Shown: positions 26,659 to 30,996 of the stretch, in pieces
How positions within the stretch are numbered: position 1 is the stretch's first letter
Layout of the letters: each line of letters begins with the position of its first letter
Source: Chryseolinea soli
GTDB taxonomy: Bacteria; Bacteroidota; Bacteroidia; Cytophagales; Cyclobacteriaceae
DNA length: 64,000 bases
Direction of reading: 5' to 3'
NCBI RefSeq assembly: GCF_003589925.1
Contig: NZ_CP032382.1
Span: forward strand, 2,914,001 to 2,978,000
Notes under the pieces: model-generated
What the model was told of the DNA's origin: nothing
The model's input: only the letters and a program-made list of their open reading frames with translations
Databases searched by the model: none
Made by a program: the position numbers and the translations under genes

Positions 26659-26690
26659 TTGCAACACTAAAAAAAAACATTTTATCTTTG
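26659..26690 (+). promoter_or_regulatory. Promoter of the Phe/Tyr biosynthesis operon (TTG-N21-TATCTTTG)
   Basis: TTG at 26659-26661, 21 bases including an A-tract, then TATCTTTG at 26683-26690, an exact -7 consensus. Transcription should start near 26697, about 14 bases before the leader peptide ATG at 26711. Confidence 0.75.
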
Positions 26691-26710
26691 AACCACTTCA
26701 AGAAGAAGAT

Positions 26711-26773
26711 ATGACCATCAACCGCACAAGCTTTTACTTTTACTACTTTTTTAGTACCCCAGCGGGACTTTAA
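26711..26773 (+). CDS. Phe/Tyr-rich leader peptide of the aromatic operon
   Basis: A 20-codon frame beginning ATG at 26711 and ending TAA at 26771-26773. Codons 8-14 read Phe-Tyr-Phe-Tyr-Tyr-Phe-Phe, that is four Phe and three Tyr codons in a row, a composition with no likely use except as a translational sensor. It lies just downstream of a strong promoter and upstream of a perfect terminator hairpin, in front of genes that make exactly phenylalanine and tyrosine. An A/G-rich stretch (AAGAAGAAGAT) precedes the ATG in place of a classical Shine-Dalgarno. The last codons and the stop overlap the strand that forms the antiterminator (26764-26771). The peptide itself probably has no other function. 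Confidence 0.88.
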   Translation: MTINRTSFYFYYFFSTPAGL

Positions 26774-26822
26774 GAGCAGTGTGTTGTTGATTAAACGATA
26801 ACGAAAAACTCAAAAAAGTCCC
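26764..26822 (+). promoter_or_regulatory. Antiterminator pairing of the Phe/Tyr attenuator
   Basis: GGGACTTT at 26764-26771, at the end of the leader frame, is exactly complementary to AAAGTCCC at 26815-26822, the left arm of the terminator. The two pairings exclude each other. A ribosome stalled at the last Phe codons (26747-26752) would leave 26764-26771 mostly free, so the antiterminator can form. A ribosome that reaches the stop codon at 26771 covers it, so the terminator forms. Confidence 0.8.
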
Positions 26823-26845
26823 GGAACCCCGGGACTTTTTGTTTT
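26813..26845 (+). terminator. Attenuator terminator upstream of pheA
   Basis: A perfect 12-bp stem: 26813-26824 pairs with 26829-26840 around an AACC tetraloop, with the T-run continuing as TTTTTGTTTT. It lies 18 bases before the pheA ATG, inside the transcribed leader, so it is a regulatory terminator and not the end of an upstream gene. Confidence 0.9.
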
Positions 26846-26862
26846 ATGGACATAGTGTAAAA

Positions 26863-27705
26863 ATGGCAAAGAAGAAGAAACTCAGCATTGCAATTCAAGG
26901 GATCGCCACCAGCTTTCACGAAGTGGCCGCGCTCACCTATTTCAACGAGCCCATCGACACCATCGAGTGCCTGTCGTTTCACCGTCTTTGCGAAAGCCTC
27001 AAGAACGGCGAGGCCGACTATGCGGTGATGGCCATCGAGAATTCCATTGCCGGAAGCATTTTGCCAAACTACTTTCTTTTGCAGGAATATCACTTCAGCA
27101 TCATTGGCGAGCTCTATCTCCCCATCCACATGCACCTGCTCACATTGCCGGGCGTGAAGTTGAGCGAGATCACCACCATCGAGTCGCATCCCATGGCCAT
27201 CCGCCAATGCGCCGAATACCTCCACGCCCTGAAGAACGTCGAGATCCGCGAAAGCGATGACACGGCGCTTTCGGCCAAACGCGTGAAAGAGATGAAGCTG
27301 AAGACCACCGCGGCCATCGCCAATGAGCATGCCGCAAAAAAATATGGCCTGCAGATCCTGGAGAAACGCATCGAGACCCATAAGAAGAACTTCACCCGCT
27401 TCCTGGTGCTCACCAAGCGCAGCCACGACAAAAAGGAAAGCAACAAAGCGTCCCTCAGTTTTGAAGTGGCCAACGAAGTGGGCAGCCTCGCCGACGCGCT
27501 CATGACCTTCAAGAACAACAGCATCAACCTGACCAAGATCCAATCGATACCGATCATTGGAAAGCCCAGCGAATACTCCATCCACATCGACGTGGAGTGG
27601 AAACGCCGCAAGCAATACGACGATGCCATGCACCAGGTGTTGCTGCAGGTAAAAAATCTCAACGTGTTGGGAGAGTATAAAAAAGGAAAGATCGAATACA
27701 AATAA
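26863..27705 (+). CDS. pheA: Prephenate dehydratase
   Basis: A 280-residue cytoplasmic enzyme that converts prephenate to phenylpyruvate. The catalytic TRF motif is Thr178-Arg179-Phe180. The N-terminal lobe begins LSIAIQGIATSFHEVAA, the Bacteroidetes variant of the usual YQGxxGAYS start, and IENSIAGSI matches the conserved substrate loop. Residues about 198-275 form a C-terminal ACT domain (EVGSLADALMTFKNNSINLTKIQSIPI) for feedback inhibition by phenylalanine. There is no chorismate mutase domain; that activity is fused to the DAHP synthase at the end of the operon. The ATG at 26863 was chosen because it lies after the terminator; the longer frame starts inside it. Confidence 0.95.
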   Translation: MAKKKKLSIAIQGIATSFHEVAALTYFNEPIDTIECLSFHRLCESLKNGEADYAVMAIENSIAGSILPNYFLLQEYHFSIIGELYLPIHMHLLTLPGVKLSEITTIESHPMAIRQCAEYLHALKNVEIRESDDTALSAKRVKEMKLKTTAAIANEHAAKKYGLQILEKRIETHKKNFTRFLVLTKRSHDKKESNKASLSFEVANEVGSLADALMTFKNNSINLTKIQSIPIIGKPSEYSIHIDVEWKRRKQYDDAMHQVLLQVKNLNVLGEYKKGKIEYK

Positions 27706-27719
27706 TAAAGACGCGAGCG

Positions 27720-28919
27720 ATGATCACAACAGCCAACCGAATTGCACAGGTAGAAGAATACTACTTCAGCCGCAAGCTGGCCGAAGTACGCGGCCTCGAC
27801 ACCCCCGAACTGCGGGTGATCAACCTGGGCATCGGCAGCCCCGACCAGGCGCCATCGGCTTCCACCATTGAAGCGCTGACGGCCTCTGCAAAAAATCCGG
27901 CCAACCATGGCTACCAGAATTACAAAGGCATTCCCCAACTGCGCGGTGCCATTGCCGACTTTTATAAAAAGACCTACCAGGTTTCGTTGAATTCCGAAAC
28001 GGATATCCTTCCCCTTATGGGTTCCAAGGAGGGCATCATGCACATCGCCATGGCATTTGTGAACGAAGGCGACGAAGTGCTCATCCCCAACCCAGGCTAT
28101 CCCACCTATTCATCGGTGGCCAACCTGGTGGGAGCAAAGCTCAGTCCCTATGCCTTGCGCGAAGATTCCAATTGGGGCATCGACATGGAGGCGTTGAAGA
28201 AACGCGATCTTTCGAAAGTGAAGATCATGTGGGTGAACTTCCCGCACATGCCTACCGGCAGAACCGCGTCGCGCGAAGAATTGAAGGAATTGGTTGACCT
28301 GGCCCGCAAGCATCAATTCCTGATCGTGAACGACAACCCTTATAGCCTCATCCTGAACGATGAGCCCATGAGCATTCTTTCTATCGAGGGTGCTGATGAA
28401 GTGGCGTTGGAGTTGAACTCCCTTAGCAAATCGCACAACATGGCCGGGTGGCGCATCGGTTGGGTGGCCGGCCGCAAAGAATATATCGAGGCGGTATTGA
28501 AAGTGAAGAGCAACATGGACTCGGGCATGTTCCTCGGTCTGCAACACGCTGCCGTGGAAGCCTTGAAGAATGGAGCCGAATGGTTCACATCGCTTAATGC
28601 CGTGTACGCCGACCGGAAACGGGTAGCCATGCAGTTGCTCGACCTGCTCGGCTGCACCTATTCGACAAAGCAATCCGGTTTGTTCGTGTGGGCAAAAGCG
28701 CCCGACCAAATCCAGGATGTGGAGAAGTGGATCGACGAGATCCTCTACGGCACAAAAGTGTTCATCACACCCGGTTTCATTTTTGGCGAAGCCGGAAGAC
28801 GATACATCCGCATTTCCCTCTGCTGCACCACGACGATGCTCACAGAGGCCGTGCAGCGTATTCAAAAGTTTTTAGGCGATAAGGCTGCTGTTTCGGCAAA
28901 GGCCTCTGTCAACGCATAA
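27720..28919 (+). CDS. PLP-dependent aminotransferase class I/II (aromatic branch)
   Basis: A 399-residue fold-type I aminotransferase. The PLP lysine is Lys237 in LNSLSKSHNMAGWRIGW. Other family marks are INLGIGSPDQAPS near the N terminus, NPGYPTYSSVANLVGA, VNFPHMPTGRTAS (in place of the usual NPxNPTG), a following NDNPY, and a C-terminal RRYIRISLC with the carboxylate-binding Arg. Position between pheA and tyrA suggests it makes phenylalanine and tyrosine from phenylpyruvate and hydroxyphenylpyruvate, though by sequence it also resembles LL-diaminopimelate- or alanine-type enzymes. It starts 14 bases after pheA. Assignment of the aromatic role rests on context. Confidence 0.88.
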   Translation: MITTANRIAQVEEYYFSRKLAEVRGLDTPELRVINLGIGSPDQAPSASTIEALTASAKNPANHGYQNYKGIPQLRGAIADFYKKTYQVSLNSETDILPLMGSKEGIMHIAMAFVNEGDEVLIPNPGYPTYSSVANLVGAKLSPYALREDSNWGIDMEALKKRDLSKVKIMWVNFPHMPTGRTASREELKELVDLARKHQFLIVNDNPYSLILNDEPMSILSIEGADEVALELNSLSKSHNMAGWRIGWVAGRKEYIEAVLKVKSNMDSGMFLGLQHAAVEALKNGAEWFTSLNAVYADRKRVAMQLLDLLGCTYSTKQSGLFVWAKAPDQIQDVEKWIDEILYGTKVFITPGFIFGEAGRRYIRISLCCTTTMLTEAVQRIQKFLGDKAAVSAKASVNA

Positions 28920-28934: not shown

Positions 28935-29816
28935 ATGAAGACAACGGTAATCGGTCTGGGGTTGATTGGAGGTTCCATCGCGTTGGATCTGAAAAAAGCA
29001 GGTCTTGCGTCGGAGGTGATCGGGCTGGAACAAAACGCCGCACACGCCGCCCGGGCTGTGGAGCTGGGATTGGTTGATCGGATCGGGGAAAAAGAAGAGG
29101 CTTTGGCAACTTCCGATCTGATCATCTTGGCCATCCCGGTTAACGCCTTGGGCAAATTGCTGCCTTCCGTGTTGGACAAAGTGCACAAAGACGCCGTGGT
29201 GATGGATGCCGGATCGACCAAAAGTTTGATCTGCCGCGCCATCGCCCACCATCCGAAACGCAGTCAATTTGTGGCGGCACACCCCATTGCCGGTACGGAA
29301 AACTCGGGACCCGAAGCAGCCTTCGAAGGACTGTTCCGCAACAAGACCAACATCATCTGCGAACGCGACAAGTCCTCCGCACAAGCGCTGGATGTGGTAA
29401 GCCAGGTGTTCGACGCCTTGGGCATGAACACCATCTTCATGGAACCGGAAGAACACGATAAACACGTGGCCTATGTATCGCACCTGTCGCACGTGAGCTC
29501 CTTTTTGCTGGGACAAACGGTGTTGGACATCGAGCGGGATGAAAAAAATATTTTCGCACTGGCGGGTAGCGGCTTCGCTTCTACGGTGCGTCTTGCGAAA
29601 AGCTCGCCCGACATGTGGGCGCCCATCTTCGAGCAAAACGCCGAATACCTGAGCCAGGCCTTGCTGGAATACATTATGCACCTGCAGAAGTTTCAGTACT
29701 ACCTCATGAAACGCGACGCCAAAGAACTTCATCGCATCATGGCCGACGCCAACCGCATCAGAGAAATTTTAAACGGAATAGAACACAAACAAACAAAACA
29801 ACAGATCGCAAAATAA
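28935..29816 (+). CDS. tyrA: Prephenate dehydrogenase
   Basis: A 293-residue NAD(P)-dependent enzyme that converts prephenate to 4-hydroxyphenylpyruvate. The Rossmann motif GLGLIGGS is at residues 7-14. DAGSTKSLI and AAHPIAGTENSGPEAAF contain the conserved Ser/His active-site region, and HVAYVSHLSHVSSFLLG follows in the helical dimerisation domain. No ACT or chorismate mutase domain is attached, so feedback by tyrosine may act elsewhere. It is 15 bases after the aminotransferase and 12 before the DAHP synthase gene, clearly one operon. Confidence 0.95.
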   Translation: MKTTVIGLGLIGGSIALDLKKAGLASEVIGLEQNAAHAARAVELGLVDRIGEKEEALATSDLIILAIPVNALGKLLPSVLDKVHKDAVVMDAGSTKSLICRAIAHHPKRSQFVAAHPIAGTENSGPEAAFEGLFRNKTNIICERDKSSAQALDVVSQVFDALGMNTIFMEPEEHDKHVAYVSHLSHVSSFLLGQTVLDIERDEKNIFALAGSGFASTVRLAKSSPDMWAPIFEQNAEYLSQALLEYIMHLQKFQYYLMKRDAKELHRIMADANRIREILNGIEHKQTKQQIAK

Positions 29817-29828
29817 AAACACACGCAT

Positions 29829-30932
29829 ATGAAGCATACATTGCAACTGGAATCAATTTCGAAATGGCTCCCCACCGCCAGTAAGCCCATCATCATTAGC
29901 GGACCTTGCAGCGCGGAAACCGAAGAACAGACCATCGCCACCGCCAAGCAACTGGCCGCTACGGGCAAAGTACACGCCCTGCGCGCCGGCATCTGGAAAC
30001 CCCGCACACGCCCCGGCCAATATGAAGGCGCAGGCGAAGAAGGATTGAAGTGGCTCATCGCCGCTAAAAAAGAAACCGGCTTGCCCGTCACCACCGAAGT
30101 GGCCAACGCCGCCCACGTAGAAGCCTGTCTCAAGGCCGGTGTCGACATCCTTTGGGTAGGCGCCCGCACCACGGTGAACCCCTTCTCCGTGCAGGAGGTG
30201 GCCGACTCGCTGAAAGGCGTGGACATCCCCGTGATGGTGAAGAACCCCATCAACCCCGACCTGGAGTTGTGGATTGGCGCCCTCGAGCGTCTCAACAAAG
30301 CCGGCCTCACCAAGCTGGCCGCCATTCACCGCGGATTCTCGTCGTTCGAAAAAGGACCTTTCCGCAATGCCCCCATGTGGGACATGGCGATCGAACTGAA
30401 GACCCGCATCCCCGAACTGGACATCATCTGCGATCCCAGCCACATTTCGGGTAACCGCGAGCTCATCTCGTTCATCTCCCAAAAAGCGCTCGACCTCGAT
30501 ATGGCCGGTCTCATGATCGAAAGCCACATCAACCCCGACGCGGCCTGGAGCGACGCCAAACAACAAGTGACCCCCGCAAACCTCGGCAAGATCATCGACG
30601 GCCTGGTGGTGCGCACGGTGTCGTCCGACAACAAAACGTTCAAAGATACCCTCAGTATCCTGCGCGAACAGATCGACCAACTCGACGACGAGATCATGTC
30701 CAAACTGGCGGCCCGCATGAAAATATCCGAGAAGATCGGTCAGTACAAAAAGGAGAACGGCGTCACCATCCTGCAAGTGGCACGCTGGGAGGAGATCATC
30801 CAAACCCGCATCACGCTGGGCAAGGCCATGGGCCTGAATGCTGACTTCACCAGCGACCTGCTGAAGCTCATTCACCAGGAGTCCATCCAGATCCAGACCA
30901 AGGTCATGAACAAGGTGGAAGAACGCGTGTAG
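29829..30932 (+). CDS. Bifunctional DAHP synthase / chorismate mutase
   Basis: A 367-residue fusion. Residues about 1-260 are a type I-beta 3-deoxy-7-phosphoheptulonate synthase: GPCSAE at residues 25-30, GIWKPRTRPGQYEGAG, TEVANAAHVEACLKAGVDILWVGART, and CDPSHISGNRELI. Residues about 275-365 are an AroQ-type chorismate mutase (LREQIDQLDDEIMSKLAARM, with KISEKIGQYKKENG). One protein thus catalyses the first step of the shikimate pathway and the first step of the Phe/Tyr branch. In the related Porphyromonas/Bacteroidetes and Bacillus fusions the mutase domain mediates feedback by prephenate or chorismate. It is the last gene of the operon and is followed by a strong terminator. Confidence 0.95.
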   Translation: MKHTLQLESISKWLPTASKPIIISGPCSAETEEQTIATAKQLAATGKVHALRAGIWKPRTRPGQYEGAGEEGLKWLIAAKKETGLPVTTEVANAAHVEACLKAGVDILWVGARTTVNPFSVQEVADSLKGVDIPVMVKNPINPDLELWIGALERLNKAGLTKLAAIHRGFSSFEKGPFRNAPMWDMAIELKTRIPELDIICDPSHISGNRELISFISQKALDLDMAGLMIESHINPDAAWSDAKQQVTPANLGKIIDGLVVRTVSSDNKTFKDTLSILREQIDQLDDEIMSKLAARMKISEKIGQYKKENGVTILQVARWEEIIQTRITLGKAMGLNADFTSDLLKLIHQESIQIQTKVMNKVEERV

Positions 30933-30959: not shown

Positions 30960-30996
30960 AAAACCCCTCTTTTCTTACAGAGGGGTTTTATTTTTT
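30960..30996 (+). terminator. Terminator of the Phe/Tyr operon
   Basis: An 11-bp perfect stem, 30960-30970 (AAAACCCCTCT) with 30979-30989, loop of 8 bases, followed by ATTTTTT. It lies 28 bases after the DAHP synthase stop codon. Confidence 0.92.

Follow-up and report, generated by a model that had tools for sequence, protein, structure and literature searches.

The region upstream of pheA in Chryseolinea soli is most probably a ribosome-mediated transcription attenuator, through which the levels of charged tRNA-Phe and tRNA-Tyr would set the expression of an operon for phenylalanine and tyrosine; we place the probability of this reading at roughly 85%. Textbooks know leader-peptide attenuation from proteobacteria, and the Phe/Tyr leader described here is a widely conserved case of this known class, with a putative bivalent response. 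Comparison of related loci reveals that many Bacteroidota have one and the same anatomy before the Phe/Tyr operon, and that its pairing arms coevolve. The locus lies in a stretch of 64,000 nucleotides (hereafter the window) and was singled out in an earlier reading made from the letters of that stretch alone (the sequence-only reading), whose observation as a whole is confirmed and whose interpretation of the locus is partly supported.

The features of the locus are collected in Table 1. Upstream of pheA we found a leader with a run of codons for the products of the operon, a terminator before the first gene, an antiterminator that shares a strand with that terminator, and a competing protector. 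The 20-codon leader with FYFYYFF at codons 8–14 and the perfect 12-bp terminator were both present as first described from the sequence, and anatomy, conservation and arm pairing all agree with the proposal of a leader-peptide attenuator before a Phe + Tyr operon. The antiterminator pairing that had been proposed also exists, sharing the terminator strand and overlapping the leader stop codon, but it comprises 9 bp rather than 8.

The promoter required revision. A consensus promoter had been claimed, but a sigma-70 promoter search returned no match at this site; that candidate was rejected and a Bacteroidota-type arrangement, TTG – 21 nt – TATCTTTG, put in its place. We read TATCTTTG as fitting TAnnTTTG, which we take to be a Bacteroidota promoter motif. 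TAnnTTTG occurs at most 90 nt upstream in 29 of the 85 leaders tested, compared with 6% of letter shuffles, and a TTG stands 15–23 nt ahead of it in 25 of these 29 loci, at a spacing of 21 nt in 14. Because this promoter lies upstream of the leader ORF, a transcript start downstream of 26773, which the sequence-only reading had named as a refuting finding, is without sequence support.

Table 1 Features of the Phe/Tyr leader and operon, in window coordinates.
Feature	Position	Strand	Description	Basis
-33-type promoter element	26659-26661	+	TTG	Sequence and spacing in related loci
-7-type promoter element	26683-26690	+	TATCTTTG (TAnnTTTG)	Sequence; motif upstream of related leaders
Leader peptide ORF	26711-26773	+	ATG 26711, stop 26771-26773, 20 codons, peptide MTINRTSFYFYYFFSTPAGL	Sequence; frame and run conserved
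Protector helix strand 1	26717-26736	+	Codons 3-9	Predicted folds
Control codons 8-14	26732-26752	+	F-Y-F-Y-Y-F-F	Sequence
Strand A	26763-26771	+	Antiterminator 5' arm CGGGACUUU, overlaps leader stop codon	Fold, alignment, cross-locus pairing
Strand 2	26771-26791	+	Protector 3' arm; also gives GAG and 5' side of antiterminator apical hairpin	Fold
GAG	26774-26776	+	Antiterminator middle helix (with 26809-26811)	Fold and alignment
Antiterminator apical hairpin	26782-26803	+	26782-26789 with 26796-26803	Fold; 6 of its pairs in alignment count
CUC	26809-26811	+	Antiterminator middle helix	Fold and alignment
Intrinsic terminator	26813-26840	+	Perfect 12-bp stem, 6 bp GC, then GUUUU	Terminator search and alignment
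Strand B	26815-26823	+	Antiterminator 3' arm and part of terminator 5' arm	Fold, alignment, cross-locus pairing
pheA, prephenate dehydratase (PDT)	26863-27705	+	ACT domain sub-threshold	PF00800 8.8e-58
Aminotransferase class I/II	27720-28919	+		PF00155 5.9e-66
tyrA, prephenate dehydrogenase	28935-29816	+		NF006307 over cut-off; PF02153/PF20463
DAHP synthase fused to chorismate mutase (DAHPS/CM)	29829-30932	+		PF00793 and PF01817
Terminator-like hairpin	30960-30989	+	Closes operon	Terminator search

The operon behind the leader has the order pheA-aminotransferase-tyrA-DAHPS/CM. Searches of the genome (8.24 Mb, one contig) gave one PDT match (pheA), one tyrA match and four DAHP_synth_1 matches, so that, as far as these searches detect, the committed steps to Phe and Tyr lie in this operon alone.

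Predicted folds suggest an RNA with three mutually exclusive pairings: a protector (1:2), an antiterminator (A/2:2'/B) and a terminator (B:C). The antiterminator is predicted to be a three-segment stem spanning 26763–26823, built from the 9-bp A:B helix, GAG:CUC and an 8-bp apical hairpin. The segment 26753–26828 folds into this structure at -23 kcal/mol (z -4.56), which none of 200 shuffles equalled, and a transcript ending with strand B does so at -25.6 kcal/mol, equalled by 2 of 200 shuffles. The complete leader folds as 1:2 together with the terminator (z -5.62 for 26695–26847). In the window the predicted protector joins codons 3–9 to 26771–26791 at -21.8 kcal/mol (z -3.57).

These pairings suggest how supply could be read. 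Stalling at codons 8–11, near the start of the Phe/Tyr run, would place the ribosome over strand 1; with A and strand 2 left free, the antiterminator would form and polymerase would continue. Fast reading to the stop codon would, in the window, bring the ribosome over A, and the terminator would form. If the leader were not translated, 1:2 and the terminator would form together, giving an off state. The extent of RNA covered in each case is reckoned from established ribosome dimensions. Because the run opens with a Phe codon followed by a Tyr codon, shortage of either amino acid should stall the ribosome at an effective place, and we infer that a shortage of Tyr alone would open the gate. If so, the leader would work as a clean, naturally occurring OR-gate with two amino acids as its inputs.

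The sequence-only reading had envisaged a compact two-state mechanism in which a ribosome at the stop codon masks the antiterminator strand directly. We rejected this as incomplete, since a protector helix and a longer, three-segment antiterminator were found, which together give classical three-state logic. Direct masking of A is also not general, because the stop codon lies up to 18 nt beyond the A strand in some relatives (L077, L079, L082, L089); in relatives with a later stop, the ribosome at the stop codon would cover strand 2, and the terminator would again form. In these loci and similar ones the leader is extended past the A strand by E-R-E-S-V/L-C. The codons of this extension are the partner strand of K/N-R-F, indicating a peptide sequence set by RNA pairing.

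Across loci the predicted pairing arms coevolve: the terminator covaries strongly, and A:B and 1:2 fit their own partners better than those of other loci. Among 43 aligned leaders, 97.0% of terminator cells are paired, with double changes at 8 of the 12 pairs; none of 500 shuffles reached either measure, and both stand far above slid controls. In the same leaders the antiterminator (A:B, GAG:CUC and the apical hairpin) is 83.5% paired against 33.6–54.9% when slid, with a covariation score of 0.151 against 0.124 in shuffles (0 of 500). Double changes give it no support: double-changed cells number 13 as against 20, 21 and 14 at slides of -3 to -1, and the count of double-changed pairs was reached by 50 of 500 shuffles.

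Exchange of arms between the 88 distinct loci, in permutations that leave the relatedness between loci in, gave mean A:B duplex energies of -14.29 kcal/mol for cognate and -11.05 kcal/mol for non-cognate partners (0 of 2000 permutations), and mean 1:2 energies of -16.08 and -11.15 kcal/mol (0 of 2000). When a locus was compared with partners bearing a different B core, its own A:B was better in 5592 comparisons, worse in 1474 and tied in 370. A:B clearly beats letter shuffles in 77 of the 88 loci and 1:2 does so in 38. Among 19 leaders of a sister group, the protector helix (K-R-F/S-L-C as against N-R-F/S-V-C) has one pair that is GC in 10 sequences and CG in 7; it is 85.0% paired against 28.6–51.0% slid, and 0 of 500 shuffles match it on percentage or score. 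Its double-change pair count (1) was reached by 494 of 500. For the 15 leaders of the window's own group, the protector is 79.6% paired against 39.6–59.1% slid, but its covariation does not exceed that of shuffles, of which 137 to 478 in 500 reached the observed value on four measures and 75 in 500 on the score.

Conservation was assessed with a strict leader-plus-terminator criterion, namely a short ORF with at least five F, Y or W residues in seven, followed by a suitably placed stem with 8 or more pairs. This pattern stands upstream of 90 of 207 pheA-like loci, 88 of them distinct, where the 207 come from overlapping sets in which some genomes are counted twice. Together with the coevolving arms, this bears out the conservation of leader frame and paired arms in relatives that the sequence-only reading had named as its check. 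By set, the pattern was found at 31 of 70 family loci, 35 of 80 named loci and 14 of 29 loci in the class sample; in the phylum sample it was found in 17 of 24 members of the class and 2 of 20 from other classes. The family search matched 140 of 148 genomes, with upstream DNA taken from 70 of the 75 best-scoring hits (L034 has no DNA left of the gene). The class search matched 29 of 99 genomes, all of which were examined, and the phylum search 102 of 118, of which 40 were taken and one of the same class (G240) left out.

A terminator that is unregulated, or controlled by a protein or ligand, could in principle stand behind a Phe/Tyr frame that is incidental U-rich sequence, and the region is indeed U-rich. 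However, when the strict criterion was applied to dinucleotide shuffles and to reverse complements of the upstream regions, 1 of 590 and 0 of 204 passed. Among the 29 residues that interrupt the runs there is no Leu, though Leu is the commonest single-base product of Phe codons, and the pairing arms coevolve. We regard this explanation as largely refuted and give it next to no credence.

The pattern was absent from 39 of the 70 loci in the family and from 15 of the 29 in the class sample. Eight of the latter 15 (L190, L192, L200, L256, L257, L260, L265, L267) have an F/Y-rich leader ORF and no passing terminator. Presence of the leader goes with the full four-gene operon, which was found at 26 of 31 loci with a leader and 1 of 39 without (Fisher p 3.7e-13, with ten short-contig loci set aside and relatedness contributing to the association); at the sole leaderless full-operon locus (L123) the contig ends before the leader region. 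Many marine members of the family carry pheA without a leader, which may have been lost in these lines or never present.

Several other arrangements were seen upstream of pheA. At the leaderless loci of many family members, pheA lies behind an ORF for a conserved hydrophobic peptide ending YFIFKK (L036-L038, L040, L044, L046, L049, L056, L059, L067, L070). Two F/Y-rich leaders in tandem, each with its own terminator, precede pheA at L198 and L266; L200 has two F/Y-rich ORFs with no terminator passing the cut and is possibly also tandem. A query-like PheA with an aromatic-rich leader and a terminator was found at L184 and L185, from another class of the same phylum, and at L099, from an Acidobacteria MAG; either transfer of the whole switch or misbinning would explain these three.

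Nascent-peptide arrest, as in TnaC, which arrests in response to Trp, would offer a different use for such a leader, with the aromatic peptide stalling the ribosome on free ligand rather than on uncharged tRNA. Short aromatic-rich peptides are conserved here, as arrest would have it, but F and Y follow one another in any order from locus to locus. Beyond the run, the only residues conserved as peptide are those that RNA pairing accounts for, namely GL at the A strand and S-L-C/S-V-C opposite K-R-F/N-R-F. We consider peptide arrest very improbable.

The sequences show the mixing of Phe and Tyr codons to be the rule. The runs comprise 666 residues (352 F, 266 Y and 19 W among them), and their commonest start is F-Y-F (35 of 88). 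Both Phe and Tyr codons occur in 88 of 88 distinct loci, a count that is no test of dual sensing and no proof that both amino acids are sensed: although the criterion did not require both, chance at the observed frequencies would leave about 2 of the 88 without one of them.

The same attenuator might sense Phe only in practice, its Tyr codons being tolerated as Tyr supply rarely limits or Phe stalls dominate. Phe codons outnumber Tyr codons in the present runs, and the Phe-Tyr-Phe leader of Corynebacterium glutamicum aroR is reported to respond to Phe limitation and not to Tyr availability (PMC11802643). Against a Phe-only response, every run keeps Tyr codons, with at least two in 82 of 88, although E. 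coli pheL, with Phe as its only control codon, has none. Given the chance expectation just stated, their universal presence does not by itself prove selection for Tyr. The operon also contains tyrA, the only one detected in the genome. On balance we think a Phe-only response unlikely, though it carries real weight, and favour attenuation that follows both amino acids.

A Trp codon lies inside the Phe/Tyr run of 19 of the 88 leaders (e.g., L010, L013, L081, L097, L181). Trp makes up 19 of 666 residues within runs and 9 of 1952 outside. Since the run was picked as the segment with the highest F, Y and W content, this enrichment is biased and serves only as a lead. Trp-bearing leaders could possibly act as three-amino-acid sensors.

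Within the genome, 17 loci (L151-L167) were checked for a further Phe/Tyr leader by the presence of a short ORF and terminator, and only the site in the window (L159, L160) passed. Six successive TWY triplets occur at 31 sites (11 forward, 20 reverse), with 20 and 10 for the control, so the pattern is neither rarer nor commoner than its control; among the 30 loci returned by this search, those outside L151-L167 are a TAC repeat. A search with CAY runs for a His leader gave 228 sites and was set aside as uninformative.

More broadly, these leaders may represent an old, class-wide aromatic attenuator whose single leader responds to both Phe and Tyr, opening for shortage of either. A Trp codon added in some lineages (19 of 88) and tandem leaders in others would then have tuned the switch to a third amino acid or given it a second gate. 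We put this forward tentatively, at somewhat less than even odds. If Tyr shortage alone opens the gate, the relatives, with their differing F/Y order, added Trp, later stop codon and tandem copies, would form a ready series on how codon choice sets the amino acid that is sensed.

No Rfam family matched the window at gathering level. At E values up to 10, the best same-strand match was Phe_leader (RF01859), with 28.7 bits and E 0.0047 for model positions 1-125 at 26716-26844; an sRNA model also matched on the opposite strand, over the terminator palindrome (E 0.0034). Phe_leader was recovered full length and in place at 8 of 12 relative loci (25.3–39.5 bits), and its gathering score of 55 bits was reached neither in the window nor in those 12. 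Like this proteobacterial pheA/pheST element, the locus combines a leader ORF with Phe codons, a protector, an antiterminator and a terminator before pheA. In contrast, its control codons are mixed (3 of 7 are Tyr), its operon makes both amino acids, and its alignment to the long helix of the model has many non-standard pairs, so the match speaks more for a shared layout than for a shared helix. The Bacteroid-trp leader RNA is marked by an Rfam match and by Trp codons in the leader; the window has neither an Rfam match to it, the presence of that family in our copy of Rfam being unconfirmed, nor a Trp codon in the leader. Enteric thr and ilvGMEDA are multivalent attenuators, whose single leader carries control codons for more than one of the amino acids that the operon makes; they differ from the present case in amino acids and in phylum.

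A 2010 survey (PMC2965389) states that leader-peptide attenuation was known outside Proteobacteria and Actinobacteria only from a Firmicutes case of its own and from an atypical erm leader. For Bacteroides thetaiotaomicron, PMC7366714 mentions short ORFs that resemble leader peptides. Our literature search, mostly of open-access texts without supplements, found no description of a Phe/Tyr leader in Bacteroidota beyond PMC9723704 (section 19, 2021), which lists a structured 5' element before pheA in Flavobacterium psychrophilum that is conserved in other Flavobacteriaceae genera, and reports clues to leader-peptide attenuation for amino-acid operons. This element shares the gene, the phylum and a structured 5' region without an Rfam hit with the present locus; it differs in that the main text, as far as it was drawn on, gives neither codon content nor switch anatomy. 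The aroR leader of C. glutamicum (Neshat 2014, as described in PMC11802643) likewise has Phe-Tyr-Phe codons before an operon with a DAHP synthase gene and ribosome-mediated attenuation, whereas it belongs to an actinobacterium, has a short run and is reported to answer to Phe and not to Tyr. It is the nearest precedent for mixed Phe/Tyr codons, and as such counts against a response to Tyr.
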